NCBI GenBank assembly: GCA_009829735.1
Contig: CM020618.1
Location: 42,236,878 to 42,300,877, forward strand
Reading direction: 5' to 3'
DNA length: 64,000 bases
Source of the DNA: Pyropia yezoensis
Lineage: Eukaryota; Rhodophyta; Bangiophyceae; Bangiales; Bangiaceae
Below are positions 3,701 to 64,000 of the stretch, piece by piece; positions within the stretch are counted from its first letter, which is position 1, and every line of letters starts with the position of its first letter. The notes under the pieces are model-generated. The model made no database searches. It saw only the letters and a list, made by a program, of their open reading frames with translations, and was not told where the DNA came from. The position numbers and the translations under genes were made by a program.

Positions 3701-4876
3701 CCGGTATGGGTGCATGTGCACTGGTTTGGCATCTGGCTTGAGTTGAATCCGGTGTAGGGTGGCGTCCATCTTGCCCAGCTCTCCGGACCACAGGTGCCGA
3801 TGTTCCTGGAGAAGCTTCTCCAGTGCCTCCTTCAAGTCGAGAGGGACGTTTTCTTGGTTGACCTTCGGCATCCCGGGCGGTGCTTGTTCGGGCTTCGGAG
3901 TAGTACGGCCAGCCTGCTCTTGTTCCGGAGATACGTCTAAGGCCGTCAAGTTGGATGCCAGCTCTTGTTGCAGGTTGAAGAGGTCTTCCTTGCTCATAGC
4001 GCGGGCGGACCCCCGGTAAGGCTCTGCTGTACCAACTCGAGTGCCCTTGGCGAGGGTTATTGGCTTCCGGCTCACGTTGACGATCAGCACCGAGAACGGG
4101 GTGTGCCTCTCCACCTTCTTGTGGTGTCCGTGGGCTAGGTATAATCGGTGTTTCGCCAGAAATTCCTTGCGTCCGTAGATCAGGCATTGACCTGCAGTCC
4201 GGGTCGTGACTTGAACCTTGGTCTCCGAGCGAGGAGGTAGGAGCACCGGTTTGATGAGGGTCAAGGTAGAGGGTGGGATGCGTTCCTTCTGGTTCTTGGC
4301 CACACGAACCTTGGTGTCCAGGTGCTCCAGCACTGGTGACACAAACCCATGGTTGAACTGCACCTTTCCTTCTCCGGGTAGGATGCTCTTGACATGCTGC
4401 TTCTGGAAGTCCCAGCCTAGGATGAGGGGGACTGATAAGGTCTTGACTACTAGAAAGGGAAAAAGCATTGGTTCATTGTTGACATAGATGGCGACGGGAA
4501 GACGGCCAAGCGGTCGTAGGGTTTGACCTGATGCGTCTACAATCCGGGTCTTGGTAGGCGCTCTCCAGGCATGTCGACGCCAGCCCGGAGGTAACAGGTT
4601 CTCAGTGATGACGCTTGGTCCGGCTCCCGTGTCGACCACCGGCGTAACAGCTTGGGGGAGGCTATCCCCCACACGCATACGAGCATTAATCTTGAGGTTT
4701 TCCTTACGCAGGACGAGCAAGGTCCCCTTGAACAAACAGGGTGTCCAGGCGGCTACCGGTTGAGCAGGTAACTGCCGTCCTTTCTCCCGGCACGCAAGGG
4801 GAGAACAGGTAGAAGTACCCTGCCGTTGGAGATTCGGGAAGACACTTGGGGAGAGCGCCTGCCCTACTCGTTTCCC
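776..4876 (-). CDS. pol: Element A Pol polyprotein (protease-RT-RNase H-integrase-chromodomain-like)
   Basis: Read from the -1 shift at 4876 to a stop at 776; the first start-like codon of the frame alone is TTG at 4735, so it is most likely made as Gag-Pol. Domains in order: retropepsin with VVDTGAGPSVI; reverse transcriptase with LVYLDDIIVFS; RNase H with ETDACG, TTERECLAVVW and TDHASLRWL; integrase with an HHCC zinc domain (GHPG..., CISCARNR) and a core with SMDILGP, TDNGPQF and NGQVERFNRT giving D, D and E. A chromodomain-like segment near the end (VYVKFVDHAWRDGRLYLRVRWFGF...DDTWEP) is followed by an acidic tail. All catalytic residues I could check are present and there is no internal stop, so the gene may be functional. 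Confidence 0.93.
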   Translation of the reverse strand, partial: GKRVGQALSPSVFPNLQRQGTSTCSPLACREKGRQLPAQPVAAWTPCLFKGTLLVLRKENLKINARMRVGDSLPQAVTPVVDTGAGPSVITENLLPPGWRRHAWRAPTKTRIVDASGQTLRPLGRLPVAIYVNNEPMLFPFLVVKTLSVPLILGWDFQKQHVKSILPGEGKVQFNHGFVSPVLEHLDTKVRVAKNQKERIPPSTLTLIKPVLLPPRSETKVQVTTRTAGQCLIYGRKEFLAKHRLYLAHGHHKKVERHTPFSVLIVNVSRKPITLAKGTRVGTAEPYRGSARAMSKEDLFNLQQELASNLTALDVSPEQEQAGRTTPKPEQAPPGMPKVNQENVPLDLKEALEKLLQEHRHLWSGELGKMDATLHRIQLKPDAKPVHMHPYRAGPHRRDEIEKQVNKMLKMDVIEPSDGEWAFPVVVVPKPGGHFRFCVDYRRLNEMTVKDVYPIPRMDDCLDYLGDATLFSTLDCNAGYWQIPLADEDKDKTTFTCHMGLFRCKRLPFGLTNAPATFQRAIDIILSGLRWRTCLVYLDDIIVFSKTPAEHLEHLREVLALLSKAGVTLKAEKCHLFETEVEYLGHVLSPGELRVNEKNIKALRHARQPKTQTELKSFLGMCNVYRRFVRDYALIARPLTKLTSKKLPAQLPVFDEKQTAAFEELKKRLTTTPVLALPKREGQFVLETDACGVQVGCSLLQQQPDGHFLPIGYYSRVLTPAEKNYSTTERECLAVVWACFLLRPYLEGQEFLIRTDHASLRWLLCMDSSQGRVARWRLRLSEFKYKVCTRAGREHHCADTMSRLETPAADTGPIPEEIPCFILPNVGRGWHAPLYETPEAHQPVTIHRMLEAQLTDPQCLELRHQMDLNRNSRFSESTDGLLVRVSPFDGATQVYVPRSLRTDILRLEHSSPQAGHPGINRMYASMRRHYYWETMASDVHKCLEACISCARNRLSQRKKTSKLRLFPAAEPFASLSMDILGPLPETSSGNIYLLIICDRFSKFTRAIPLRTITALDVTSAFCEYWIAAYGPPDSVLTDNGPQFASLFFQGVCDLMGIKNLYTTTYHPQTNGQVERFNRTLVDMLRHYVEEHQEDWDELLAVLTLAYNSRVHRTTGVAPLDFVTPRRLTNFSLERIPDGLQPALKSGPKAKDEFLEQLKLLLPRVKESISKTQERYKRDYDKGVREKNKELGGGDWVFVDNHSKTRGKLDSKTDGPYEILNTDGWTFLLDVDGSPYRVSSDHVTRAPPPSQRDLTRRKRTAIPWLSQEEGREFVYVKFVDHAWRDGRLYLRVRWFGFNPADDTWEPSNRLPIADVCAYTRRNGIEGTPVARAGKILESDTEEDQEDGANQDPRDETSSPATDAEQED

Positions 4877-6624
4877 GGCTCCGAGGAGTCCTTAGAGGTT
4901 TCGGTCTCCAGGTCAAAGTCCGTAGGAGCTTCCCTTGCCAGAGCCTCCGTGATGCTCTGTAAGGTTGCCACTCGGATGGCATGTACCTGTGCCTTGTCCA
5001 TCTTGGAGGGTGCCCGCCGGTCAGCCCAGTTGACCGCCTTTGCAAACACCAGTCCTTGACGCTTGAGTTTCTCCTGGAGATCCTCGGGAATGGTCGGGCA
5101 CTGGTAGGACATATGATCCTCCTTCTGGCACAGCCAGCAAGACCGGAACCGCTGGTTCCTGATCTGCTTGGGGGCGACCAGGGAAGGTTGCTCCTTAGAA
5201 ACGAAGCCGCCCCACTTGTCCCTTGACTCCATGGGTGAGGCCTCGCCAACTGCGAGTACCGGTACAGGGTTATCACCTCCCTTATACTTGTCGGGTCCGG
5301 GACGAACTCGCGACAACGGCTTGGGGGTTGATACCATAGGAGCCTGGAGGGCCTTGGCTTGCCGGTGCTTGCCCTGGGTATAGGCCATCAACTGCTGGAA
5401 GGTATGTTCTTGATGTTCCTGGTTGTAGTTCTCCGCATCCACTTGAAGATATTCAGGAAGCCCCTCCGAGAAGATCATCTTGAGCCTGTCCTCAGGGTAA
5501 ACGTTGCCACAAGCATCGCTCATCTCCCGGACACGACGGGCGAACGCCTCTGGAGTCTCTTGTCTCTCCATGGTTGCCCGGTTCAGCCTACCGACTGCCT
5601 TACGCAGGGAGTCCGCGTCTGCGTAGTTGGACAGGAGCCAGTTGACCGCCTCCGGATAACTCGCGACGGTACGTCCAACAATGTGCCCGGCAGAGTCTGG
5701 TAGAACCTGTGCAAACCGCTGTTCCGCTTCTCCGGTCATGAAGTTAACCAGGAGATAGAGAGCCTTGCCCTCGGACACATCGTTGTCATTGCATGCCTTG
5801 ACAAACCGGCGCAGGAAGGCAAAGATAAGCGCCGGTCTCTTCCCGGAAAACTTAGGATGTCCCCCAAAGCTCGGCTGCATTCGCCGGTTCAGGGATGCCA
5901 TCTTCTTGGCCATCTTCCGGGTGTAACCTTGGTCTTGGTTCTCCAGCCGGTAGTTACCCCAATACGTGACCTTGTTCAGGGTGGCATCTCCCACTTGGTG
6001 GGCAGGGAAGTCGAACTCGACTAGCCTGCGCCGGGTAGGACCGGGAGATGCATCCCAGTCATATCCCTCCTCAGAGCTGGAGGAACTGGTCTCGCTGGTG
6101 CTAGAGCGGCGGCGACGACGCCGACGCCTACGGCTGTTCCGGTCACCGGTCTTGGAGCTCCCCGCCCCATAGGACGCAAGGGGAGGAAAAGCTTGGCCGG
6201 TCCCAGGAGTCGAAGTCTCAGGAAGACCCGTAGAACCAGTCATAGCGGTGCCTCTGGCACTGCTAGTGCCCACAGGAAGAGGTGTATACACCCAGCTGCC
6301 ATGTGTGGGTCCAGGAGTAAACACACCAGGGGCTATCCCTGGAGGTTGAAGAGTAGAACCGACAGGAGGGAGACGTCTGCTGCGAGCGGACTCAAACGCC
6401 GTTGACCCCGGGGTGGCTCCCACAGGAGGAACAGCCGGAGGAACGGGAGCAGGGGGTACTTGGCCGCCTGTAGACTCCAGTCCACTACCGGATGTCACGC
6501 CCAGGTCTGCTTCACCCGTAGGGAGAACGCCGGGTTGGGCACCGTCCCCCGCGGTGACCAGGGATGCGTCAAGGGACGCGGGGTCTACCCCTTCGGGCAC
6601 CGTCGTGCCAGGGAGGGTAGCCAT
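4864..6624 (-). CDS. gag: Element A Gag polyprotein
   Basis: 586 residues starting MATLPGTTVPEG, with ATG at 6624. The first 150 residues are a Pro/Gly/Thr-rich low-complexity segment, followed by a run of arginines and an acidic serine tract (about residues 165-195). The central part (GEAEQRFAQVLPD, ...ALYLLVNFMTGEAEQ, METPEAFARRVREM-like helices) matches the retrotransposon Gag capsid type. A CCHC zinc knuckle, CWLCQKEDHMSYQC, lies near residue 490. It forms particles and binds the element RNA. The end overlaps pol in the -1 frame, and the shift heptamer sits just before the TAG. Confidence 0.9.
   Translation of the reverse strand: MATLPGTTVPEGVDPASLDASLVTAGDGAQPGVLPTGEADLGVTSGSGLESTGGQVPPAPVPPAVPPVGATPGSTAFESARSRRLPPVGSTLQPPGIAPGVFTPGPTHGSWVYTPLPVGTSSARGTAMTGSTGLPETSTPGTGQAFPPLASYGAGSSKTGDRNSRRRRRRRRRSSTSETSSSSSEEGYDWDASPGPTRRRLVEFDFPAHQVGDATLNKVTYWGNYRLENQDQGYTRKMAKKMASLNRRMQPSFGGHPKFSGKRPALIFAFLRRFVKACNDNDVSEGKALYLLVNFMTGEAEQRFAQVLPDSAGHIVGRTVASYPEAVNWLLSNYADADSLRKAVGRLNRATMERQETPEAFARRVREMSDACGNVYPEDRLKMIFSEGLPEYLQVDAENYNQEHQEHTFQQLMAYTQGKHRQAKALQAPMVSTPKPLSRVRPGPDKYKGGDNPVPVLAVGEASPMESRDKWGGFVSKEQPSLVAPKQIRNQRFRSCWLCQKEDHMSYQCPTIPEDLQEKLKRQGLVFAKAVNWADRRAPSKMDKAQVHAIRVATLQSITEALAREAPTDFDLETETSKDSSEPGNE
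4870..4876 (-). promoter_or_regulatory. -1 ribosomal frameshift heptamer GGGAAAC, gag to pol of element A
   Basis: On the minus strand the last gag codons read CCG GGA AAC GAG TAG, so the heptamer G GGA AAC has the canonical X XXY YYZ phase. A -1 slip there enters exactly the open pol frame (GGG AAA CGA ...), which stays open through the protease. The gag stop is two codons downstream. Seen directly; that it works is inferred. Confidence 0.75.
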
Positions 6625-9992: not shown

Positions 9993-12900
9993 AGCAGCAA
10001 CCGTCGTCAACAACGGTGAAAGATGCTCCTTTGGTTCCGGAAAACAAATCGTCACCCTTTGAAGGCCCGCGTCTCGGGCTACTGCTTTCTACTGCTTCTG
10101 TCAATGGCCATGTTGTAAAGGTGCTGTTCGACGACGGGTCTCCCATCAACGTCGTCTCCAGGCGCCTCATGAAAACCCTAAATGTCAAGACCACTGAAAC
10201 GGACTTCGCGGCAAACATGCCCGATGGACGTTCCCATGTACTCGCTGAAACCATTGAACCCTTAGAGATTCACATCGGCCTTTACCAAGAACGACTACGG
10301 TTCGCCGTATGCGATCTCAGTGCGTACGACGTTATCCTCGGTAAGAAATGGCGCGATGACAAGGGCGCCAAGATCAAGAACAAGAAGAACAAGATATCCT
10401 TTAAGTTCAACCACAAGAATATTTCTATCACCGCCTCCCTCAAGAAACCGGAGGGCCTCATTAGCCGGCAACGACTCGCACGTGACCTCATCCAAAGGAC
10501 CCCTGTATTCGCCATCTACCTGCAGTCTGAAGACCCCTCAAGCAGCTTTGACATCAACTCCATCATTATGGGAGAAGCTGAAGACAAAAATGAAGTCCAA
10601 CAGATTCTCAAGGAGTACGCTGACGTCTTCCCGGCTGAGCTCCCGGACGGACTCCCTCCCGAGCGTAGTCACAAGTTTAGCATCAAGCTGACCGACGACG
10701 CTGAACCACGTCGCAGCGGTATTTACCGCCTCTCCGAGTGGGAACTCGATGAACTCAAGACGCAACTTGCGACCCTGATTCGGAAGGGATTCATCCAGCC
10801 AAGTGCCTCACCGTGGGGCTCCTCCGTTCTATTTGCGGCGAGGAAGGACGGCGGCTGGCGAATGTGCATCGACTACCGAGCATTGAACAAGGCCACCATC
10901 GAGAATGCGTATCCTCTACCACGTATCGATGACATCTTTGATCAACTACGAAAGGCCAAGTATTTCACGAAGATTGACCTCCGCTCTGGCTACCACCAGA
11001 TCCGGCTGGACCCTGACACCATCCCATTGACGGCGTTCCGGACCAAGTATGGATTCTACGAGTTTACTGTGCTACCCTTCGGACTGACGAACGCCCCCGC
11101 AGTCTTCATGAACTTGATGAACGATGTGTTCAGACCCTACCTGTACGACTTCATCTGCGTCTACTTAGACGACATTTTGGTCTACAGCGAAACCTACGAG
11201 GATCATCTCAAGCACCTGAGAAAAACCCTGGCCAAGCTACGAGACCACAAGCTTTACGCCAAGGCAAGTAAGTGCCAATTCGCTCGAACCACTGTCGATT
11301 ACCTCGGCCACGTCATATCTGACGCAGGCTTTTCCATGGAGGACCAGAAGGTCCAAGCCATTCGGACGTGGGCAACCCCCAAGAGCAAGAAGGACGTGCA
11401 GTCCTTCCTCGGTATGGTCAACTTCTATCGCCGATTTATCAAGGGAATGGCCGCAGTTGCTACCCCTCTTACGAGGTTGACGGGGAAGGTCGACTTTGAG
11501 TGGACGCCGGACGCTCAAAAAGCCTTCGAGCAGCTGCGGACTCTGACAACAAGTGCACCGGTACTAAGGCCGTTTGACAAACGATATCCCATCTACGTGT
11601 CTACTGATGCCAGCGGGTATGCTATTGGCGCAGTCTTCGAACAAGACGACGGAAAGGGACGGCGTCCAGTGGCATTCTTCTCCCTGACCTTGAATATCCA
11701 CGAACAACGCTACAGCATCCGCGAACGTGAGCTGCTCGCAGTGGTCCAAGCCATCCGGCACTGGCGCTGCTACCTCCACGGAAGACCCTTTGAGGCCCAT
11801 ACCGACCACTAGTCCCTGAGATACCTGCGAACCCAAGAAAGGCTGAACGACCGCCAAGTCAAGTGGCTTGAACTTCTGGACCAATTCCAGTTCAAGATTG
11901 TCCCGATCAAAGGCATCTCCAACGGCGTAGCTGATGCCCTTTCCAGGCAACCTCAAGATGCCCCTGACACGCACGAACCCAACCAAGATCTCCTTAGTCG
12001 AGTGCTGACCAAGGCCATTGACGAAACCCTCAAGAAAACTGAAATCAACAACCTCATGACCATCAACCAAAGTGATCAAGACCTTGCCACCCTAGAACAA
12101 GAGTACAAAGTGGACCCCGAATTTGCCGACCTAGCCAAGGACCCGGTATCTCCCTACCGGTTTTATATGAGGTTGTTGAAACGAGGTGACCGTACGTGCA
12201 TCCCCGCTGGTACTCTACGCCAAAGACTCCTCCACGACTACCACGACGTCCCGTGCCAAGGGCACATGGGAGTGAAGAAAACCACCAAGGCCGTTGCTTC
12301 CAATTACTACTGGAAGTCTATGCGGCAGGACATCCAAAGATACGTACAATCATGTGATTCGTGCCAGCGGAACAAGGCTAGCACTCATTCACCTCTGGGT
12401 CATCTCAAACCACTCGAACCCCCAAGCCAAAGATGGGCAAGTGTCTCCATGGACTTTATCACCCCACTGCCACTGACACCACGAGGCCACAACGGCATTT
12501 ATGTCGTTGTTGACCGACTCACCAAGATGATTCGCCTGGCACCAATGAAGCCGGAATGTACAGCGCCGGTCACAGCTCAGCTTTACCACGATCACTTCGA
12601 TCGCAACCACGGCCTACTTCAAGAAGTCGTCTGTGACCGCGACCCCATCTTTTTCTCCAACTTCTGGCGGTCACTGACAAAGATCCTCAAGGTCAAGATC
12701 AAAGCCTCATCGGCCTACCACCCGCAGACGGACGGCCAAACTGAGATTATGAACAAGAAAATTGAAGAAATCCTCAGAAACTTCGTCAACCATCATCAAG
12801 GCGACTGGGATCTTTTCCTCGTTGGCGCGGAAGTTGCGTACAACCGGTCACCTAATGCCGTAACCACGTACTCTCCATTTTTCTTGAACTACGGGTTTGA

Positions 12901-13507
12901 ACCAAGGACCGTGCCTATGGACATCCTCGACAGCAGGGACTCAAATCTTCCTGCTGTGTCGGATTGGCTATCCAGCCTCCACGATGCTCAAAAGACGGCT
13001 ATCGCCGCCATCAAGAGCGCCAATGAGACGCGCGCGGCGTACGCAAACCGTCATCGCCGACCATGCACAATCGCTGTGGGCGACCACGTACTTCTCAGCA
13101 CCAAGAACCTCTTGCCCGACGCTTTTCAAGGCGCTCGTAAGCTGATGCCCAAATACTCCGGACCCTACAAAGTCACGGAGAGCATCAATGACGTCACGTT
13201 CCGTCTCGATCTTCCTCAAGCTGTCCTCGATCGCAAAGTTCACAACGCCTTCCATGCCAGCCTCCTGAAGCCGTACCGCGCTGATCCGTATGGTCGACTT
13301 CCTCCCGTTCCACCCCCGGTTGCATTTCCGGATGGCTCGGTCGAGTATGAAGTGGACTCCATTATACGGTCACGAAAGCGCCGTGGACGACTGCAGTACC
13401 TCGTCAAATGGAAAGGCTGCGACATCAGCGAGAACTCTTGGCTGACAAAGCAAGACCTTGTGAACGCCCCTGAAGTTTTAGACGCGTTTCTTCGATGCGC
13501 GTCCTAA
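9978..13507 (+). pseudogene. pol: Element B Pol polyprotein with one in-frame TAG
   Basis: In the -1 frame relative to gag. Domains: protease with LFDDGSPINVVS; RT with KIDLRSGYHQI, LPFGLTNAP and VYLDDILVYS; RNase H with STDASGYAIGA, RERELLAVVQAI and HTDH; then a TAG at 11810-11812, after which SLRYLRTQERLND continues the same domain without a frame change. Integrase follows, with an HHCC motif (GHMGVKKT, CDSCQRNK) and core (SMDFITPLP, CDRDPIFFS, DGQTEIMNKK). A canonical chromodomain ends the protein (YEVDSIIRSRKRRG..., YLVKWKGCDISENSWL). One C-to-T change in a CAG codon would explain the TAG. With LTRs about 99% alike, the copy is recent but probably dead unless the stop is read through. Confidence 0.9.
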
Positions 13508-34938: not shown

Positions 34939-36921
34939 CTACGAAAAGTTCTCCTCCCGAAACGCAAACCGCACGTTCGCGCCGTACGAGTCGCTCATCG
35001 TGGAGGTGCCGGTGGCGTCGGCCTTTGGGCGGCCCCGCTCCGCCGCGTCGGCGGCGCCACCCGCGTCGCCGCCGCCGGCAGCGCCGGCCGCCGCGGCCGC
35101 CCCGTCGGTTCGTCGAAAGCCGCGGCGGAGGAAGCCGCTCACCGACCCGGCGGCGGCAGACCACGGGGTCATTGCGCCGCTGCCGCCGCCGCCGCCAGGA
35201 CCGCCGACTCCGCCGGCGGTGACATCCCCGCCCCCGCCCCCCTGCCCACCACCACCACTACCACCACCACCGCCACCGCCACCGCCGCCGCCGACGCCGC
35301 CGACGCGCGTCGCGTCCCGCGACAGGGCGCCTGTGCGGAGGCCCTTGACAATACTGGCGGTCATGGCACCACGCGCCGCCTCCTGAACAGCGGCGCTCAT
35401 GGTGTGGGGCCCGCAAAAAAAGATGCCCACCGTGGTGCCGCTCTTGCTCCGCTCCGCAATCCCCCCAAACACCTCGTCCCAGTCGGGGCGCCCGTAGTTG
35501 GTCCGCAGCGGGATGCGCTCATAGTCGAGCATCCACGGCTCCACCGCCGCCGCCGCCCGCGTAATGTACCGGTGGAGGCGGACGGTGCCCGAGTGGCACA
35601 GCGGGAGGAGCTCCGACACCAGCCAGCTGTCGTCGGCCTGCGTCTGGGCCGTCCACACAAAGTCCAGCGACCGGGTGTCGGAGTGGGTGGCCCGCACGTT
35701 TTGAGCGAGCAGCACCCGGCTGCCAATGACGCGGATGAGGCGGTAGACAAGGGTGGCCAGCACCCCCGGCCACAGCAGCCCCACCCGAAGGCCCGCGGCG
35801 GCGGCGCCCGCGGCGGCGCCGGCGCCCGCGGCGGCCGCCGCGGCGACCGCCACGGAGAGCCACGTCAGCGGCAGCAGCAGCCCCGCGTCGACCACCGCGC
35901 CGAGGGAGGACAGGTACGCCACGCCGCCGAGGGTGGTCCACTCGAGCGCCACCGACACGGTCAGCGGCACGGCGGTGGCGGCGGCGAGCACCAGGTCCGC
36001 CACCGCCCAGCCGGTGCGGTTGTACATGGCCAGCCCCGCCGACCGGGGGGTGAGGGCGCCAAAGACGCGGCCAAAGGCAACCAGCGCAAACCGCGCAATG
36101 ACCAGCCACACCAGCAGCATGGACGCGGTGACCGAGTGCAGCGCCTGCAGCGCGCCAATGCGGGTAGCCATGGACAGCTGTGGGCGGTACCACGGCCGCC
36201 GGCGGCTGCTGCGGCGGCTTGCCGCCGCCGAGCGGTGGCCCCCCCCCCCACCTCCGCCACCACCACCGCCCCCGCCGCCGCCGCCGCCACCGCCGCCGCG
36301 GCGGCGGTCGCCCGGTGACGGTGCACCAGACGCGGCTTCGACCGCCGACGTGGTCGCGCCCGCGAGCGAGTGGCTGCTGCCGTACAGGCCGCCGCCCCCA
36401 GTCGACAGGGCGCTCGTCCGCCGGCGGCGGCCGCTGAGGCCACCCGCCGCCGACGAGCGGCGGTGCCGGCGGCGGTCACGGGCGCCCTGCCGGCGGAGGT
36501 GGCGGAGCATGGCGGAGGAGCCAAAGGACAGCCCAATCAGCTGCTCCGCGCTAGAGTGCAGGAACGCAGAGTGCCGCAGCAGGTGGCCGAGGCTGCCCAA
36601 CGACGCCGACTCCATCATGTCCAGGTCTTCCTCATCACCGCTCTCCTCGCTGTCATCGCTGCCGTGGGCGTCGGCGTGCAGGGCGGCGTCATCGTCGTCC
36701 TCATCATAGCCAAGGCTGCTCTCGTCGGCACTCTCCACCATGCCCCCGCCGACTGCCGCCGCGTTGCTTCCCCGGCGGCCCCCAGTGGTGCGGGTAAACG
36801 GGTTGACCCCCTCCCCGCGGGCCATCCCGTACCACGGTGGCAGGGGCGTCGCGTCCTCCAACACCCGCCCCAGGCTGCCGTCCGACCCACACGTGTGCGC
36901 CGACTCCTCGTCCGAGTCCCG

Positions 36922-36959
<38 letters not shown>

Positions 36960-39940
36960 CGCCGCCGCGCACCAACGCAGAAAGCCGCCAACGCCGCCCA
37001 CCAGGGCGTCCGTCGCCCCCCTCGCCACGCGTGGCCCCTCTGGAGGGGTGCATGGCCTCCTTAGCGGCACCGTCCAAGTCGCCACTGAAGTCGGAACTGA
37101 GGTCGCTGTCGGTGGGCAGGTGGGCGTCCCCCCCACTGGGGGAGCCCCCCCCTATCATCGCCCCATCTACGCCATCATCACACACGTCGAGGTCGGCCGC
37201 GTCGGCCACATCGTAGTCGGCGGCTGCTAGCCCCCGGTGGGCGACGCGGGCGGCCAGTTGGGAGCTCACTGGGCTGATGGCGCTGCCAAAGCCCGCCCCG
37301 CCGGGCACGCCAAGGCCCGTCGCCTTGCCGTCGTCGTCCGTGTCCACCCCAATCGCCGCCGCCAGGCGCGACGTCGACGATCCGCCAATCAGGGAGGTGC
37401 CCCACGGGCGTGCACCCGCGTCGCCGCCGCCGCCGCCGCCGCCGCCGCCAGCCCCCCCCCCCCCCCCCCCCCCCCCCAAGTCCACCGCCACCGCATCGCC
37501 GAGCGACACGCGGGCGGCGCCCTCGTCCTCGGCGCGTGCAAAGCTCATTAGCTCCTCCACCACCGCCGCCCGGCTGGCCGCCATGGACAGCCGCCGGTCC
37601 GCGGCGGTCTGGCCCTTGTCCGCCACCGGGCTGCCACCGCCGCCGCCTGCCGACGCGGCGCGCACGAGGGCGCCCCGCGGGGTGCTGTTGCCGCCGCCGC
37701 CGCTGCTGTCGGCGGCGATGGCAGCGGCAAAGGCGCTGGCCAGGCCGCCGAGGGAGCCCCGCCGTGTGAGGCCCGACACGGACAGGGCCGACGCGGGCGG
37801 CGTTGGGGATGCGGCCGTCGACGACAGCGGCGGCTGCGGCGGCGGCGGCGGCGGTGGCGCGGTCATGGACGAGGACGGCGGCGCCGAGCCGTCCACCTCT
37901 TCGAGGAGGCCCGCCAGGGAGGCGGTGGACGACACGGGCCGGAGCTTGGCCGGCGCCGCCGCCCCGCCGGGGGAGGACGACGCCAGCCCCACAATGACCG
38001 CCGCGGTGGACGACGCGATGGACAGCGCGGACAGGGCGGGGCTCATGCCCACGCCCGCGGATACCCCATCAGCGGCACCCCCGCCGGCGCCGCCCGCCCC
38101 CGGCCCTCCGCCGTGCCCCACGATGCCCCCTCCAACGCCCCCGCCGCCGCCGCCGCCACCGCCGGCAGCCACGCCCAGCCCCGTGGCCGACGACCGTGAC
38201 CGGGAGCGGGTGACGAGCCCCGCGGCAGCGGCAGCAACGACCGAGGCGGTGCGCTCGCCAAGGCCCAGCACCCCCCCCCCCCATCGTCAATGGCACTCCC
38301 CCCCGCGGACGTCACGTTGGTGAGCGACGACGAGTGGCGGTGGTTTTCCACAAGACCCAGCACCCCCCCTCCTCGCCCCCCTTCCCCCGCCGCCGCCGCC
38401 ACCGCCGCCGCCGACCCTTCCACCGTCCGCGCTGAAGTGTTGTGCGCGCCCATCGGGTTAGAGAGGCGCCCCCCCCCACCACCGCCGCCGCCTCCCCCCC
38501 CCCCCCCCCCCCCGCCGCGTCGCCTCCACCGCCGCCGCCACCGCCTCCGGCGCCCCCCCCGCCCCCCCCCCTGCGGGCTGCCCAGTTGAGCATCCAGTGG
38601 TGGGCGGCCTTGACGACGGAACAAAACGGGGTGGCGCCGACGCCGCCGCCAATGAGCACCACGTGGGAGAATTGGCCCACGTGCTGGGCGGGCGACCCGT
38701 GAGGGCCCCGCAGGTGCACCACAATGTCATCGCTGCCGCCGCTACCCCCGGCACCGCCGCCGCCTCCCGGCACTGGAAACGAGATGGCCGACGAGCTGTC
38801 CGAGCCGCCCAGTGACGCCGAGTCCCCACCACCGCCCCCCCCACCGCGGCCGCCGCCGCCGCAAGCCGCGGCGGTGCCCCCCGCATTGGCAAACAGGTCG
38901 TACAGCTTGGCCGTCCAGTCGCCGTTGCGCTTGATGTAAAAGACCATCTCCGACTCGTGCGGCGCCGACGCGATCGTAAACGGGTGCCACTCGATGCGGC
39001 TGATCGCCGGCACACACAGCTCCGCGTACTGGCCCGCCACATAGTCAAACGCGCGGGGGAAGCGGAGGCACAGGATGCTGTCGCCGCCACCACCACCACC
39101 ACCACCACGGCCGCCGCCGCCGCCGCCGCCGCCACGGCCGCCGCCACCACCATTAGCAGCCCGGCCGCCGCCGCCGCCGCCGCCGCCGCCACCGCGGGGG
39201 CCCGCCGCCGCTGCGGCCGCCGACCCGCCGACCGACGCGCGGGAGAGGAGGAGCTTGCACCGCTGCGTGCCGACCGCCCGCACGATGCGGTCAATGGCGT
39301 AGACGGCGAGGGAGACGGCCACCCACTTGACCGTGTGGGGCTTGCCATAGTGCATGCCATGCAGGACGAGGAGGACAAAGAAGGCCACCCCCCCCCCCGC
39401 GTGGGCCCAGTAAAACACCTCAAAGTGCCGCGCCCGCACCGCCCGCAGGCTGGTGCCGCGGATAAAGGCGAGCACCCCCACCAGCCCGACGCCGCTCACC
39501 ATCAGCGACACGCGGCCGGTAAACCCACCCGTCCAGTCGGCGCGGAGGGAGTAGGCCACCACGTGGGCGCCCACGTGCACGCCCGCCGCCGCCAGCAGCA
39601 CGTACGCCACCGCCGTATGGCCGGCGGGCATGGCCTTGTCAAACGGGACGACCATATTCAGCGGCGTTGCGCGGGCGGCGGTGAGCGTCGCGCGGGCGGC
39701 GAGGAGCAGGATGAGGAAGGCGTTGAGGTTGAGCACGTTGCCCGCCCCCCGGGCAACGGGCATCACCCACGCGTGCGCCGACCCGTCGGGGTGCAGCCGC
39801 CGCTCGGGGGTGGCGGCGGCAAAGAAGAGGATGGCGTTGGCGAGGGCGTAGAGCAGCAGGAAGGTGACCACAAACGCGTGCGCCGACAGCAGCGACTCGA
39901 CCCGCGATACGGCCGACGCCACCCGGTGGCGGGCCGCCAT
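34939..39940 (-). CDS. NOX/RBOH: NADPH oxidase / respiratory burst oxidase, split by two homopolymer frame breaks
   Basis: Start ATG at 39940, end TAG at 34939. N-terminal part (39940-38520): ferric-reductase membrane domain without EF-hands; heme histidines fit H108/H122 (GHTAVAYVLLAAAGVH) and H180/H194 (FYWAHAGGG...LVLHGMH). Then the FAD site (HPFTIASAP) and NADPH site (GGGVGATPFCSVVK). C-terminal part (from 38271): a long Ser/Gly/acidic linker, about four more hydrophobic helices (36150-35700), then VGIFFCGPHTMSAAV and the terminal FREENF, both standard NOX C-terminal motifs. So the NADPH domain is interrupted by linker and helices. Three consecutive frames are joined at C runs near 38500-38514 and 38272-38282. 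Each needs the same shift, as if one base were missing. It would transfer electrons from cytosolic NADPH to oxygen outside. Confidence 0.85.
38272..38282 (-). other. C-run at a reading-frame break in the NOX gene
   Basis: The frame ...SAIDDGGGG before this run continues after it as VLGLGERTASVV only in another phase. A one-base indel in the run, real or from sequencing, is the simplest explanation. Confidence 0.6.
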
Positions 39941-51950: not shown

Positions 51951-53047
51951 GGCGGCCGACAGTGGGCTTGAGAGGAGAGGTTGAGGGACTCCCCCGCAGC
52001 AGGCAATGTAGGGACTTCCGTGACAGGCGGGAGCATGGGTGACACGCCTGCGCCAGACCCGACACAGGCAGCAAGAACCTAGCCCCCCCCCGCTTTGTGC
52101 GGGTGTATGACGGAGGCAAACAGTACAACCGGGCCGACAGCATTATGGCGACGCGCTGAGTGCGCCGGTCGGAAAGGGCCCTGACGAGATATGCCCACAA
52201 GAGCGCGTTCTGTGCAGTGATCGTCAAATAAATTGGTGTCTTTCAAGTCTATTTGACGCGTACGATCGCTCACGATCGACAAAATTTAGTCAACATGTCG
52301 CCCTTGATCGTGTCATAGTAGTTTACACAGGGGCTCCTTCAGTTGTGATCTGCGACGATCGCGCTCCAGCTCCGGACCGCGTGAGTTTTGTCAGTGTGAT
52401 CCCCCGAATAATCTGTTTTCTCGTTGGACTTGGTCCGACGTCGTCGAGCGACTACTCGACGGTTTCATGAACGGATTCAGCCTCTGGAGATGCCGCTCTA
52501 GACAAGTCCGTCTGAACTGGTTGGGGACACCTGATTACGGTTGGTCCTCCAGTCAGAAGCGGCCACGTGCGCTCATTTCAGCCTGAAATGAAACTTGCTT
52601 GCGGATGGTCCCGCTGTCGCTGGTCGTCCTCTAACGTCACCACTATCATCCGATGCGGCAGCGCGGTTCCAGGCGGTTCCAGCTGTTATGATTGTTGCTG
52701 ACAGCAATGCCACCTGGGCTCCATACTGGCAATTTCGTGACGGCGCTCCATCGTTGTGATGTGATGGAACGTGATGGGCCAATCGCACGGCTCCATCACT
52801 TTTCATCAGCCTCGCTCGCACATACCGGCCGCGCTGGTGAGTGACGCTGAATCCTCGCGCTGCGTTGTGTACTTGTTTTGTATTATGTGTCTTGCTGTCC
52901 GTGTGGGGTATGGAGGGCCGTGTGCGTGCATGTGGCAAGCGGCTCCGCGCCTACTTATACGCCTTCTCCCATCGAGTAGCGAGGAGGGAGTCGGAAGGAT
53001 AAGGCAAGTGGGACTCTTTTGATACACTGGTGCTTAGGTGCGCTCGG
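51951..53047. other. Lower-GC intergenic sequence
   Basis: From about 52230 the composition is close to balanced. No gene, RNA or repeat recognised. Confidence 0.35.
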
Positions 53048-53516
53048 TGTGCCAAAAACCACTTGCACACACGACACCCAAGTTGGGGCGGTGTACAAGG
53101 GCTGCCTCCCGTGTGGGGGGAACCGGAAGAAGTGCAAGTCGCACACACTCTGTCCCTGTTGTGGGGCAAACCCCCCACTGACGAACAAGAGGATGGTGTG
53201 TGGTCCAACAGTTTCTTGGTCGGGACGGGGACGCAGGGCCAAGCCCCGCTGTCCCTCCCCTTATCCCCCCAGGGTCCACTCAGAATCTCGCCACTCAGAA
53301 TCTCCCACCCCAGCACCTGCCCACCGGGCCACACGAAAATTCAAGACGATAAATGCAGAAAACCCTCAAATCCAAGTTGGATTTACTACTAAGCTAACTA
53401 TCCCAAACTTAGGGAATATGGACCCAAATGCAGGGGGAGGAACGGATCAGGCTAGTGGCCTGCCGCCCCTTGCATGGCACGTGTTGCCCCCCTACCTGGG
53501 GGTCAATACTGCTACA
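53048..53516. repeat. 469-bp LTR, copy 1 (probably solo)
   Basis: Begins TGTGCCA and ends TGCTACA. Identical in length to copy 2 (61647-62115), with about eight substitutions. A 15-bp direct repeat (CACTCAGAATCTC..) lies inside, and AAATCCAAGTTGGATTT (53368-53384) is a perfect 17-nt palindrome. Neither side shows element C sequence, so it is best explained as a solo LTR; I see no clear target duplication. Confidence 0.8.
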
Positions 53517-56830: not shown

Positions 56831-58570
56831 AGCGGGCAGTCACAGTTAACAGGGTAAGGAGGGCGGAGGAGCCTTAGAGGAAGATGGTCCGTAGTCAGTG
56901 TTGGGGTGGTGCGCTCCAGTCAAACACGGCCGTCCCCACCTCAAGTGCTACACTTTTATAGCCGCTCCCACCCCCCAAGGTGCCTTCCAACACGTAGGCG
57001 GGAGAAAGCGTCTCGAACAACAGCCGAGGCTGCACGCTGGCTCGAGGAATCCCGTCTCGAAAGCTGCACAGCTACAGCGCCGCGCGCGCAAGCGCGCACA
57101 TCGGCGGCGACCGGGTCGTGTCCCGCCAAGGCCGCCGCTCGGGGCGCTGATCTCCCGCGCTGAGCCCCTGACACAAGAGCTCGTACGGCGCCCACACGCC
57201 CCTGCTACTGGCAGCCGCTGTGTACCGTCACCATAAATTCAGCCAGGGAAAAGCGCGGGACGGCGCCGGCGAAGCGGCTTAATCAATGCAGCCAGGGACA
57301 AGCGCGGGACGGCGCCGGCGAAACGGCCGGGATCGGACACGAAACATGGGTCGGAACAGGAGGTACGCGTCCACGGGTTAGGAAAAAGAATACGCAGAAA
57401 GCACACCGCAATTGCGCGCCACACGATACTGGCGCGCCCGTCATGATAACGACGAGCCGAGGTACCCGGCGTCGGGCAAGCCTGCACGATGCGGGGGTAG
57501 GGGCAGATGCGGCGTTTACAATTCAGCGGCGTGACGTACCCAGGAAAGGAAGCGGACCCCAGCAAGGTGGGTGCTGACTGCTCCTCTAGCGCCGCAGTCT
57601 CGTCCATACCTTGCCTCTGCTACGAAGCAGCAATGGCATGGGCTGTCCTCGGGCCACTCAGTCGCCACAGAGGAGCGTCGCCGGTCGAGCTTTGAGGGCG
57701 CGCTTTCTCCCAGGCAGGCGCGGATCCGTGAATGGCACTCGGTTGCGAAGCAATACCATCGGATTTGTGGAGTACGTACTAGGTGTCCCATTCCGCAGTA
57801 CATGTACGGAATAGTACGATACAAGTCTAAAGGATGCGCATAGATATTGGTCAGTGTGCACTATAGGACAACCTTACAGCGCTTGATGCAGAATTTAGTC
57901 TTGTATACCTACCAAGTTATCAAACGAGTGAAGCTTATTTGTGCTGAAAATGTTTTCTTCCACATCGAGTGCCCAAGATCGGCACATTACACTTTCTCGC
58001 TGCGAGGGATGGCACCAACCCGCGTCGAACCACACGCTCAGTCGTCTTCGGTCTCCTTCGTGCTGTGGCGCGCAGCGCACGCAGCAGCGCTGTGCACGGC
58101 TATGGTGCAGTGCGAGCCGCGGCTGCGCGATTACGGTCCCAGCCTGGGGCGCGGTTTCGCATCTGTACAGGTGCGTCCCGCATTTTTTTTCCACTTGAAA
58201 GTCCTGTGCAGGTGCCTGTTACGACATGCGGTGTGAGCGCGGGGTGCGGTGATGTGATCGGTGACGTGCCCCTGGGCATGGCACCTTACTGGTGCATTGC
58301 GAGGATCGAGCACGTGATGCCCGCTCGTGTGTGGATCACCTTGTATGATGCTTTGTGCCACGGCCCATCCGTTCACCATACTGACTGTCAGAAGCACATG
58401 CGGGGGCAGTACCTGGCTGCAATGCACTAGGCCGTCCGTTTGAACCTCGGGCTACCTGGGGGGTGCCAAAGTCCAGGGAGTGTGGCGTGTGTGGCGTGCA
58501 TGTGGGACCCTCCGCGCACTCCGGCAGGTCCGGACGTCCTTGAGCTGGATGGCCCACTGACGCCAGGGTC
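56831..58570. other. Intergenic between divergent decayed genes
   Basis: Contains an imperfect ~36-bp direct repeat at 57242 and 57291 (period 49; GCGCGGGACGGCGCCGGCGAA core). No intact gene seen. Confidence 0.35.
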
Positions 58571-61646: not shown

Positions 61647-62115
61647 TGTGGCAAAAACCACTCGCACACACGGCACCCAAGTTGGGGCGGTGTACAAGGG
61701 CTGCCTCCCGTGTCGGGGGAACCGGAAGAAGTGCAAGTCGCACACACTCTGTCCCTGTTGTGGGGCAAACCCCCCACGGACAAACAAGAGGATGGTGTGT
61801 GGTCCAACAGTTTCTTGGTCGGGACGGGGACGCAGGGCCAAGCCCCGCTGTCCCTCCCCTTATCCCCCCAGGGTCCACTCAGAATCTCGCCACTCAGAAT
61901 CTCCCACCCCAGCACCTGCCCACCGGGCCACACGAAAATTCAAGACGATAAATGCAGAAAACCCTCAAAACCAAGTTGGATTTACTACTAAGCTAACTAT
62001 CCCAAACTTAGGGAATATGGACCCAAATGCAGGGGGAGGAACGGATCAGGCTAGTGGCCTGCCGCCCCTTGCATGGCACGTGTTGCCCCCCTACCTGGGG
62101 GTCAATACTGCCACA
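61647..62115. repeat. 469-bp LTR, copy 2, at the edge of element C
   Basis: Bounded by perfect 7-bp inverted termini TGTGGCA and TGCCACA. The sequence just right of it (62116-62126, GTCCCCTCTCC) reads as a purine tract on the minus strand directly before TGTGGCA. This fits a 3' LTR of an element whose gag-pol lies on the minus strand to the right. A 5' LTR of a plus-strand element is the alternative, but no TGG-type primer site follows. Several short hairpins with 5-nt loops occur inside (62047-62061, 62075-62087, 62087-62101). Confidence 0.85.
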
Positions 62116-62234
62116 GTCCCCTCTCCTCAGTTCCGACCGACCCGGTCGGCCCTGTGAGGGGGTGCGTAAACGCACGTCTCGGCGTTGGGGGCGCGACTTG
62201 CTGTCCCCCCTTGAGTACGTAACGCGGATGTGGA

Positions 62235-62253
62235 GGCGGTCACGTTGACCGCC
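62235..62253. other. Perfect 7-bp-arm hairpin, loop ACGTT, in the element C leader
   Basis: GGCGGTC and GACCGCC flank ACGTT. One of the series described in the findings. Confidence 0.8.
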
Positions 62254-62430
62254 CCTCTCCTCAAGCTTGCCCACTCGGCAGCTTGCTCTCCTCAGTTCAC
62301 ACCTCACCATCACCACCACCTTCCCTTCACCTTCCACGGGGCCGCCCCACGCTGGGGAGGCCACCCGTCAACCCACGATCCGAGTCCCCCTCAACTCGAG
62401 GCGGGTCTCGTGCCGCTGTAGCCAGGGCGT

Positions 62431-62451
62431 CTCTCCCCAACTTGGGGAGAG
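62431..62451. other. Perfect 21-nt palindrome just before the element C ATG
   Basis: Arms of 8 nt (CTCTCCCC / GGGGAGAG) around AACTT; the A-C-T centre also pairs. The ATG follows two bases later, so a folded RNA would sit at the start codon. Confidence 0.85.
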
Positions 62452-62453
62452 TC

Positions 62454-64000
62454 ATGGCGACCCCGGGAGTGGAGACGGACTCTCTTGTCGAGCGTATGGA
62501 GGACAGCACCTACGGTGCAGCACCCGCCGGGACTTCCGGCGGGGGCTCCGCGATCGCTCCGGGGGATGGGACTCCCGCGTCACCCGGCTTTGGGTTGACG
62601 GCGGGATCTCCCCCGGAGGCGGGACAAGTTGTCCCGCGTGAGGCCTTGGGGCGGTGGTTTTACCCCGCTTGGCCTCTATATGAGGAGGGGTTGATTGTTC
62701 TTCGCTGTGGCCGACTTGGCGCAGCGATGGGTCGGGTATGGGACCGCCTACGGGAGAAGTATCCCCGTAGGGTCAGGTTCCCTGCCGGCTTCAGGACGGA
62801 CCAGTTTGCCTTCCTGGACGACGAGGAGGTCGAAGACATACAGCGGGCCAAGGCCATGGTGGACCGCGGGGGAACTATCCCGGGTCCCGGCGACTTGCCG
62901 ACCTTTACTTGGGACGCGGTGGCAACTCGCCCCCCGTACCTTCACGAGGCCGATCCACACACTCATCACTTTGATGTGCGGATGGAGAAGGACTTCCGGC
63001 GAGGTCCCTACTTGGTGACCTCGGCTCAACTTGAGTTTCCTCAGCAGTCTGCTGCCAGTAAGGAGCAGTACTATCCGAAGAAGCCCGAGTGGTGGCCTCA
63101 AGTTGAGGTCCCCTACGGGCTCCCGGCGTTGCTGCCACGGTTGCTTGACCACTTCGGCTCCGTCATGTTGACGGCTGGCCCTGATCACCTGGTGCGGGCC
63201 ATGTTGGCCACCCAGTGGCTCCTCGAGGTCATGTCGACCTGGGTGTCTTGTGTTCAGCGGCGGGGGATGCTCTGGCATCTCCCCCTCCGGCTTATCCAAG
63301 GTTTGGAACAGCTCACCCCTCAGCTAGTTGCTGAGGGGTGCTCATCAGGACAACTCACTCTACTTGAGGAGATGCTCCGCCTCCACAAGTCTATCGAGTG
63401 GGAGAGCATTGAGCACAAGTTGCGCCGCCCCACTCGTGGGCCCAAGGACGATGGCGCACTTCGCCAGTTCGTGTGTGTCGCTCGTGAACTTCACGACGGC
63501 CGTGTGGTCCGACGAGGGGGGTTGGGCATCGGGGACTACCCGTATGCCCCGGGGGTGGATCGCCACACTGCGCCACCCCCGGACAAGCCCATAGTTATGG
63601 CTGTGCCCTCATATGATGACCATATGACTCAACCCACGGCGGGGGCCCCAAGTCGGGGTCGCAGTTACACCCGGGTCCCGCCACCTCGGCGTGCCCCTCC
63701 GCTTCCTCCTGTCCCCTTCCAGCCGCACGGGAACATCCCGATTAGCGTGGCCGTCGAGTCGTCCACCCCGGTGTCCCCCAACTTGGGGGCCACCCTCCTG
63801 ACGGTATACCCCAAGTTGGTGTTACCGCCCACGCCTCTAACCTCAGAGATGATGATCACCACGTTGGTGCGCACCATTTCCTGGTTGGCCGCGTCGACCG
63901 CAACCCTACAGAGTTCCGAGACTCCTCAACTTGAGGAGCGCGTTCGTACTGCAGTGGCGACCGCGAGTTGCGAGTCGGTGGCGGAGTTTATGACAGCCGA
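62454..64000 (+). CDS. Element C ORF, unidentified protein (3' end off window)
   Basis: ATG at 62454, open for 515 codons to the last base. The start MATPGVETDSLVERMEDSTY is followed by a Gly/Ala/Pro-rich segment, then globular sequence: LGRWFYPAWPLYEEGLIVLR, MGRVWDRLREKYPRRVRFP, FLDDEEVEDIQRAKAMVDRG, MEKDFRRGPYLVTSAQLEFP, KKPEWWPQVEVPYGLPALLP, LVRAMLATQWLLEVMSTWVS, RRGMLWHLPLRLIQGLEQL and LTLLEEMLRLHKSIEWESIE. A Pro/Arg-rich region and hydrophobic helices come later. I recognise no family. It could be a Gag-like protein of element C or an accessory ORF antisense to gag-pol. The coding sequence itself is filled with short palindromes, so codon choice appears constrained by nucleic-acid structure. 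Confidence 0.7.
   Translation, partial: MATPGVETDSLVERMEDSTYGAAPAGTSGGGSAIAPGDGTPASPGFGLTAGSPPEAGQVVPREALGRWFYPAWPLYEEGLIVLRCGRLGAAMGRVWDRLREKYPRRVRFPAGFRTDQFAFLDDEEVEDIQRAKAMVDRGGTIPGPGDLPTFTWDAVATRPPYLHEADPHTHHFDVRMEKDFRRGPYLVTSAQLEFPQQSAASKEQYYPKKPEWWPQVEVPYGLPALLPRLLDHFGSVMLTAGPDHLVRAMLATQWLLEVMSTWVSCVQRRGMLWHLPLRLIQGLEQLTPQLVAEGCSSGQLTLLEEMLRLHKSIEWESIEHKLRRPTRGPKDDGALRQFVCVARELHDGRVVRRGGLGIGDYPYAPGVDRHTAPPPDKPIVMAVPSYDDHMTQPTAGAPSRGRSYTRVPPPRRAPPLPPVPFQPHGNIPISVAVESSTPVSPNLGATLLTVYPKLVLPPTPLTSEMMITTLVRTISWLAASTATLQSSETPQLEERVRTAVATASCESVAEFMTA
63314..63340. other. 11-bp-stem hairpin with TAGTT loop inside the element C ORF
   Basis: CACCCCTCAGC and GCTGAGGGGTG pair perfectly around five bases. 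Longest uninterrupted stem of the series, inside coding sequence. Confidence 0.85.

Follow-up and report, generated by a model that had tools for sequence, protein, structure and literature searches.

An element-long array of short hairpins with a reverse-complement-closed apex set in two gypsy-like retrotransposon families of Pyropia yezoensis

The genomic RNAs of retroviruses and of Ty1 have one or a few dimerisation sites, which lie near the RNA 5' end, and in the dimerisation initiation site (DIS) of human immunodeficiency virus 1 (HIV-1) a 5' purine stands beside the contact. Work by Kim and Tinoco in 2000 reportedly dealt, to judge from its title, with a retroviral kissing complex of just two G-C pairs. 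GACG tetraloops have been described for retroviruses (PMC516450), and two hairpins with complementary 7-nt motifs for Ty1 (PMC5454406). In the RNA of Ty3, a well-folded core is given as about 19% of the RNA and the packaging sequences as not precisely defined; a recurring loop motif is not described in the accessible part of that paper (PMC11381356). Here we analyze a 64,000-nt stretch of the red alga Pyropia yezoensis (contig CM020618.1, positions 42,236,878 to 42,300,877; “the window” throughout). Its end holds part of a long terminal repeat (LTR) retrotransposon, family C, that carries short hairpins along its whole length. The genome of this alga is described as three chromosomes with 65% GC and 48% repeats, mostly LTR elements (PMC7423979); our searches covered 107,475,971 bases in 11 contigs.

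Hairpins along the family C element

A first-pass annotation of the window had listed 18 hairpin-like inverted repeats between 61647 and 63938, and all 18 proved exact in coordinates, arm length and centre. It had also claimed five palindromes with arms of at least 7 bp. With a 5-nt spacer, we counted six in this interval, while the remainder of the window predicts 0.45 after scaling, and lowering the arm length to at least 4 bp gave 41 centres against 14.5 scaled in the same way. Odd spacers (1, 3, 5, 7, and 9) were enriched, and even spacers were at or near background. Over the whole element, taken here and below as 8,808 nt (one LTR plus the interior), palindromes with a 5-nt spacer and arms of at least 7 bp numbered 15, compared to 0.68 +/- 0.74 (maximum, 2) in 60 dinucleotide shuffles. 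Spacers of 2, 4, and 6 gave 1, 0, and 1 palindromes of this arm length against 0.7 to 0.9 in the shuffles; with arms of at least 5 bp, spacer 2 was slightly high (17 versus 10.6).

The excess was concentrated on the centres A-C-T and A-G-T. We defined an AST hairpin (where “S” is C or G) as a centre A-[C/G]-T with at least four of its five flanking pairs Watson-Crick, and derived the expectation from the remaining 62 centre triplets in that sequence. In one family C copy, 76 of the 316 AST centres were hairpins, while 7.2 were expected. These hairpins occur alike in the LTR, gag, pol, and an antisense open reading frame (ORF), fall in all three codon frames, and lie on average 116 nt apart. 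Only 1 of the 75 gaps was shorter than 28 nt, against 8.3 when AST sites were placed randomly at least 17 nt apart (fraction, 0.0005 of 2000 trials). The palindrome excess was not reproduced by the dinucleotide- and synonymous-codon-preserving shuffles that the annotation had proposed as a control: gag held 12 hairpins against 1.80 in 200 synonymous shuffles (maximum, 6), pol 32 against 3.79 (maximum, 9), and the antisense ORF 20 against 1.90 (maximum, 6). In the rest of the window, AST hairpins were near chance (31 versus 23.2), and 5 of the 31 lie inside a solo LTR of family C (53045 to 53516, minus strand; found by sequence comparison, 98.3% identical). Rfam gave no matches within the 64-kb window at gathering thresholds.

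The annotation had held that the arms are unrelated and that only the structure recurs. The arms are indeed unrelated, but the apex is constrained as well, being A-[C/G]-T in 12 of the 18 listed examples. By inspection, the remaining six have an NGT centre in five cases and TGA in one.

Judged from its LTRs and domains, the host element is a Ty3/gypsy LTR retrotransposon of the chromovirus-like type. The complete copy, of about 9.3 kb, lies in a cut locus, L009, from 125 to about 9401 (window position equals L009 position plus 61522). The window takes its low-coordinate end, 61647 to 64000 on the minus strand, as placed by the LTR direct repeat, the pol domains, and the flanks. The two LTRs (469 nt, TG...CA; L009 125 to 593 and 8933 to 9401) repeat at an offset of 8808 nt without any difference between them, and the LTR comparison places the 3' LTR at 61647 to 62115 of the window, minus strand. 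A 5-bp repeat, GACGG as read from the element ends, flanks the copy and fits a short target duplication. A domain search placed RVT_1, RT_RNaseH, Integrase_H2C2, and rve on the minus strand of L009 in the gypsy order reverse transcriptase (RT)-RNase H-integrase (INT). The chromodomain PF00385 matched on the same strand below its 25.1-bit cutoff (E = 2e-4, 21.7 bits), and the gag frame has one CCHC knuckle (zf-CCHC, E = 2.8e-6). Given the strand of the pol domains, the sense RNA is read from right to left, and the window interval is its 3' end. The annotation had followed the palindromes through “LTR, leader and ORF.” The feature in fact covers the whole element, beyond the window, but the “leader” is the 3' end and the “ORF” is antisense to gag-pol.

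Two DNA searches of the genome with parts of the element each yielded at least 40 scored family C copies including that of the window, the others being 97 to 98% identical. The window copy has identical LTRs, yet its gag and pol frames carry stops absent from all 10 to 11 other copies compared; intact copies are present elsewhere in the genome. Private stops together with identical LTRs suggest copying in trans or error-rich reverse transcription.

The apex set and the hairpins of the window

On the sense strand, the loops of the 76 family C hairpins had A51 G15 C6 T4 at position 1, followed by A, C33/G43, and T, and then T29 A17 G17 C13 at position 5. The closing pair was C-G in 44 of the 76. 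In family D, a second family with the array, position 1 was G26 A19 T7 C7 and position 5 was C30 T13 G11 A5, and 7- and 9-nt loops centred on AST were commoner than in family C. When both families were pooled, the enriched apices were AGT (73 versus 6.7) and ACT (62 versus 6.8), followed by TGT (13 versus 4.8), ACA (13 versus 5.2), ACG (13 versus 6.0), and CGT (11 versus 5.6). Among one-step variants, ACN (36 versus 18.9) and NGT (30 versus 17.5) were both raised; NCT (13 versus 14.5), AGN (20 versus 18.6), and ANT (4 versus 3.7) were not. The apex set is thus closed under reverse complement (ACT with AGT, ACA with TGT, and ACG with CGT), as expected if apices pair mutually or if double-stranded DNA matters. 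The C-apex and G-apex classes are near 1:1, at 33:43 in family C and 29:30 in family D.

From family C to family D, loop position 1 shifts in A:G from 51:15 to 19:26 (Fisher p = 0.0003) and loop position 5 in T:C from 29:13 to 13:30 (Fisher p = 0.0005). The background for position 5 at nonhairpin AST sites is unshifted (36:64 in C and 47:86 in D). The two positions are not paired inside the hairpin (21 versus 24.3 in C and 15 versus 19.3 in D). Family C loops with only the 5' purine outnumbered those with only the 3' pyrimidine by 29 to 5 (p = 4e-5), and this strand asymmetry argues for a single strand. A mixture of two orientations of the loop motif was tried and rejected, as it fitted no better than a single orientation, and the fit of an equal mixture was lower by 5.1 log-likelihood units. 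Local folding of the sense RNA gave a minimum free energy (MFE) z score of -2.45, with a mean pair probability above 0.5 in 68% of the hairpins tested.

In the window, all members of the array are read on the minus strand. The hairpin scan placed five in the LTR, with sense loops GACTT (61730 to 61744), GAGTG (61740 to 61754), AACTT (61968 to 61982), AAGTT (62000 to 62014), and CACTA (62047 to 62061). The same scan found, farther along, GAGTG at 62267 to 62281, GAGTT at 62388 to 62402 and 62919 to 62933, AAGTC at 62887 to 62901, AACTT at 63095 to 63109 and 63808 to 63822, AAGTG at 63452 to 63466, AAGTT at 63482 to 63496 and 63775 to 63789, TAGTC at 63529 to 63543, and GACTT at 63645 to 63659. 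Five AST hairpins with longer stems were found by both the palindrome and the hairpin scan: 62431 to 62451 (8 bp, AAGTT), 62523 to 62543 (8 bp, AAGTC), 62619 to 62637 (7 bp, AACTT), 63314 to 63340 (11 bp, AACTA), and 63922 to 63938 (6 bp, AAGTT). Two 7-bp palindromes have other apices. The one at 62235 to 62253 (palindrome scan) has the sense centre AACGT, a variant of the ACN class, and the one at 63609 to 63627 (both scans) has the plus-strand apex TGA, which is neither AST nor an enriched variant class.

Copies, relatives, and coinciding protein changes

We compared L009 with 16 other family C copies (18 loci, two copies each being cut as two loci with 1263 and 1264 shared positions identical) at 71 sites where at least half of the covering copies have a hairpin. 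The hairpin was kept in 686 of 739 site states, summed by locus over the 18 loci with the doubled stretches included. Paired stem positions of AST hairpins had 61 minor alleles against 105.1 expected (ratio, 0.58; 0.43 to 0.75), and AST loops had 35 against 66.5 (ratio, 0.53; 0.36 to 0.70). Decoys with permuted partners gave 191 versus 212.4 in stems and 139 versus 143.1 in loops, and palindromes with other centres gave 216 versus 249.8 and 174 versus 157.0. AST hairpins were as high as the decoys in a fraction of 0.006 of bootstraps for stems and in 0 of 3000 for loops. The same direction, more weakly, was seen in pairwise differences and in the number of variable positions. For paired positions, the 18-locus count before de-duplication also agreed (stems, 62 versus 109.3; loops, 37 versus 67.1; decoys, 194 versus 220.3 and 139 versus 143.5). 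Loops were still constrained when all ten stem positions, unpaired ones included, entered the count (0.57 versus 1.08 in decoys). With only the loci other than L009, the doubled stretches again included, the stem effect was weak (0.0258 versus 0.0299) and the loop effect clearer (0.0192 for AST hairpins versus 0.0381 for nonhairpin AST); in the antisense ORF, stems of these loci were slightly more variable than the rest (0.0304 versus 0.0251). The first polymorphism counts, made against L009, were rejected, since choosing the sites in L009 creates a bias toward unmutated stems.

Family D is 58 to 59% identical to family C in pol and carries the array too. In one full copy, 59 of the 332 AST centres were hairpins, against 6.3 expected, or one hairpin per about 152 nt, and 2 of 58 gaps were shorter than 28 nt. 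Its pol held 27 hairpins against 2.99 in 100 synonymous shuffles (maximum, 8), and in six 5-kb loci, scanned out of 12 cut, AST hairpins numbered 32 to 34 per locus. Families C and D are each present in dozens of copies that score nearly equally and have long open pol frames, which suggests recent bursts.

The array is absent from five further families of the same genome. Counts were 3 versus 3.1 expected in element A, 3 versus 2.3 in element B, 2 versus 1.6 in family F, and 1 to 3 versus 1.5 to 2.2 in eight loci of family E. Eight loci of a P0018-like family were slightly above chance (9, 5, 5, 1, 5, 5, 5, and 5 versus 2.8 to 3.4), with no array. Besides the family C copy, the window itself holds two gypsy elements, at 776 to 6624 (minus strand) and 10016 to 13507 (plus strand). 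About 45% and 31% identical in pol, they are without the array and serve as natural negative controls. Relatives were not found in the viral contigs searched, and the genome contigs searched gave two distant loci on contigs labelled bacterial metagenome-assembled genomes (MAGs), both without the hairpin feature. A tree of 13 rows grouped C, P0001, D, P0002, and P0011 (93/98, not starred); the sister group of these five was E, F, and P0012. The grouping of C and D apart from E and F is consistent with a single gain of the array.

In pol, 4 of the 27 mapped family C hairpins coincide exactly with a family D hairpin, against 0.17 by chance; in control comparisons, family E gave 0 of 27 and the P0018-like locus with nine hairpins (L024) gave 1 of 29. 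By inspection, the coinciding pairs show one two-sided A-U to G-C change, two cases in which one pair is lost one-sidedly, and two in which the apex C and G are exchanged. The annotation had proposed looking for compensatory changes in the arms, and here the comparison with family D gave modest help, with one two-sided change among the 4 shared sites. AST was kept in family D at 13 of 27 family C hairpins and at 34 of 115 nonhairpin AST sites. Judged from these alignments, most hairpins turned over between C and D while the array persisted. Turnover of sites with number and apex retained would point to a function that belongs to the array and not to any one site, for instance RNA condensation, dimerisation, or packaging.

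Hairpins also coincide with changes in the polymerase. Using 60 homologues more than 50% identical, we found that family C pol departs from residues agreed by at least 80% of the homologues at 8 of 36 hairpin columns and at 27 of 344 columns elsewhere, and no circular shift was as high. Hairpins favour permissive pol columns too (homologue-homologue identity, 0.503 versus 0.595), and in permissive columns family C was no more divergent at hairpins than elsewhere. This is a case of a nucleotide-level feature coinciding with departures from conserved polymerase residues.

The antisense ORF (569 amino acids from ATG) runs on the plus strand between the integrase/chromodomain and the 3' LTR, from 62454 to 64000 (L009 932 to 2641), and continues past the window end. 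Its variants fall 36/32/81 over the three codon positions, indicating constraint at the protein level. Homologues were found in family D (34%), in family E (29%), and in the JGI protein P0123 (31%), as well as P0122; the 3 kb beside element A gave no match. These sequence matches suggest that the ORF is an antisense gene conserved among these gypsy elements. Its family C product has an Arg-rich C-terminal tail, and no such tail was seen at the end of the family D product. An AlphaFold model of the product had a pLDDT of 33 and was not used. The product was considered as a reader of the hairpins, and this was not supported, given that family E has a homologue without hairpins and that the tail of C is not seen in D.

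Elsewhere in the window, two copies of a 46-nt tandem repeat lie at 57233 to 57327, spaced at 49 nt and 91% alike. At 34939 to 39940 (minus strand), neighbouring frames that contain ferric-reductase-like FAD/NAD-binding and transmembrane domains are likely a host gene.

Possible roles of the array and the nearest known systems

We tentatively favour a reading at the level of RNA, as a plausible account that falls short of an even chance. The genomic RNA of families C and D would be folded as about 60 to 76 short stem-loops spread over the LTR, gag, pol, and the antisense gene. Stem sequence would be free provided that it pairs, and the sense apex would be R-A-S-U-N/Y (where “R” is purine and “Y” is pyrimidine). 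Two apex classes, RACUY and RAGUY, would then be present in near-equal numbers and be mutually complementary, so that a C-apex hairpin could kiss a G-apex hairpin of the same RNA or of another copy. Many such contacts may condense and dimerise the RNA and package it selectively into the Gag particle, perhaps with the help of Gag. That RNA is the molecule read, that its loops touch, and that packaging or dimerisation is the outcome, with or without a part for Gag, we infer from sequence patterns. Loop-loop contacts are favoured by the closed apex set, by the almost equal class sizes, and by loop positions 1 and 5 shifting jointly between the families. A stronger version is possible but doubtful, namely, that a two-class loop code over the whole RNA drives many-to-many kissing and a distributed dimerisation or packaging strong enough to alter the element's own polymerase residues. 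Among the meanings proposed in the first-pass annotation, we still rank highest the class that comprises a folded RNA genome and hairpin-read sites, but its wording of a shared centre hid the reverse-complement-closed set of AST plus ACN/NGT.

Several results weigh against loop-loop contacts between RNA hairpins. Complementarity between the 5-nt loops of the C and G classes was hardly up (0.105 versus 0.071 in C and 0.092 versus 0.090 in D), and where three of pairs 1 to 4 were Watson-Crick, the fourth was G-U 26 times and A-C 26 times in C and D together. An RNA stem should accept wobble, and so these equal counts weigh against one. Polymorphism likewise depleted sense G-U (22 versus 37.8), antisense G-U (16 versus 32.0), and other breaks (24 versus 41.1) alike, in counts where two copies enter twice over about 1.3 kb. 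Together, the lack of G-U tolerance and the hardly raised full-loop complementarity argue against RNA kissing in its simplest form and would be compatible with a DNA-level cause. Folding of the antisense RNA was about as good as that of the sense RNA (z score, -2.21; 72% of hairpins), and family D has no strand asymmetry (14 versus 12). The loop-1 shift is partly background, since nonhairpin AST sites change in A:G as well (C, 48:67; D, 42:109). The classes do not clearly alternate along the element, with 44 switches versus 37.4 in C (7.5% of shuffles as high) and 23 versus 29.6 in D. When all ten stem positions are counted, no clear stem constraint is left (0.87, 0.61 to 1.14, versus 0.94 in decoys). 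Two-sided stem changes were 0 of 62 against the commonest pair, with two copies double-counted over about 1.3 kb, and 1 of 54 as Watson-Crick changes counted against L009 on a partial copy set; at 97 to 98% identity, the copies are too alike to decide compensation. Family D loci differ from L032 at 4 to 18 positions each, too few differences to gauge constraint there.

A protein could read the hairpins instead, with Gag or another protein binding an R-A-S-U-N pentaloop and dispersed sites guiding co-assembly without loop-loop contact. We consider this somewhat unlikely. Many degenerate stem-loops with a common loop motif and free stems would fit such signals, as would the 5' purine preference, the constraint on loops and paired stem positions, and the footprint-like spacing floor of about 28 nt; the strand asymmetry of family C and the zf-CCHC in the Gag frame fit as well. 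However, protein reading predicts neither the closure, in which ACN is raised along with NGT and without NCT or AGN, nor the exchange of C and G at an apex that bars A and T, and the lack of G-U tolerance also tells against it.

A cause at the DNA level, which we hold to be unlikely, would be copying or repair at a palindromic R-A-S-T-Y site (a break or pause, fold-back, and copying of one arm) or selection for palindromes in double-stranded DNA. A double-strand process suits both the strand-symmetric apex set and the equal G-U and A-C counts, and perfect hairpins are described as able to arise by template switching (PMC8794818). In family C, a hairpin tends to have one conserved arm and one that is not conserved (mean absolute difference, 0.353 versus 0.231; p = 0.001; 19 usable hairpins of the 32 in pol). 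The replaced amino acids at hairpins, and the lack of clear constraint once unpaired stem positions are included, also agree with this cause. Yet family D shows no excess of arm asymmetry (21 of 27 usable), and family C shows no direction bias. Re-copying of an arm would put changes in both arms, but recent copies are less changed in loops and paired stems, and there are almost no two-sided changes among them. Clustering of gaps at hairpins is just mild (C, 61 of 261 events in 15% of codons; D, 69 of 258 in 13%). The strand asymmetry of family C loops and the related families of the same genome that lack the array are further points against a DNA-level cause.

Some other role of the RNA, in nuclear export, stability, escape from silencing, or pairing of sense and antisense transcripts, seems quite improbable to us. 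Hairpins in the LTR, gag, pol, and the antisense gene would suit it, and if both strands were transcribed and read, wobble would be disfavoured and the loop set closed, which fits the data. However, antisense transcription is only hypothetical, and family E, whose antisense ORF is homologous, lacks the hairpins. Chance, composition, or codon usage, for which nothing speaks beyond the element's high GC, is contradicted by the shuffles and decoys, by the presence in two families, and by the near-chance level in the rest of the window, and we give it almost no credence.

Dispersed assembly codes in RNA genomes have long been disputed, since the signals involved are degenerate and difficult to detect. 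In these two families, the sequence itself shows the signal, at about ten times expectation, with related families without the array as controls. Since relatives with and without it exist, a phylogeny can be used to locate and test the origin of such a code. Literature on dispersed hairpins, palindromes, packaging, and kissing loops described no such array among the matches listed, as far as their titles and abstract openings go.

The host element shares with Ty3/gypsy chromoviruses the LTRs, a CCHC gag, the RT-RNase H-INT order, and a 5-bp flanking repeat, with a putative chromodomain that scores below its cutoff; it has the hairpin array and the antisense gene in addition. Sirevirus repeats are alike as a high-copy symmetric motif in a plant LTR element, but they are described in LTRs and near the env gene, with a CGG-CCG core (PMC2829016). 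Template-switch hairpins are alike as perfect inverted repeats from one event; the accessible text describes no fixed apex for them (PMC8794818), and they do not predict loop constraint. Nearest in working, by analogy, appear to be the Ty1 kissing loops and dispersed packaging signals. Kissing-loop dimerisation in retroviruses and Ty1 (HIV-1 DIS, the GACG tetraloops of murine leukaemia virus [MLV], and the Ty1 hairpins) relies on complementary apices and links two genomic RNAs, whereas here 59 to 76 sites cover the whole element; the core ASU classes are complementary and near 1:1, with full 5-nt complementarity hardly raised. Packaging-signal-mediated assembly of single-stranded RNA viruses, as proposed for MS2, human parechovirus 1, and hepatitis B virus (HBV), also involves numerous short stem-loops that are scattered over the RNA and have a recognition motif in common (PMC6281560). 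The array described here differs in belonging to an LTR retrotransposon and in its closed loop set and strict Watson-Crick stems.

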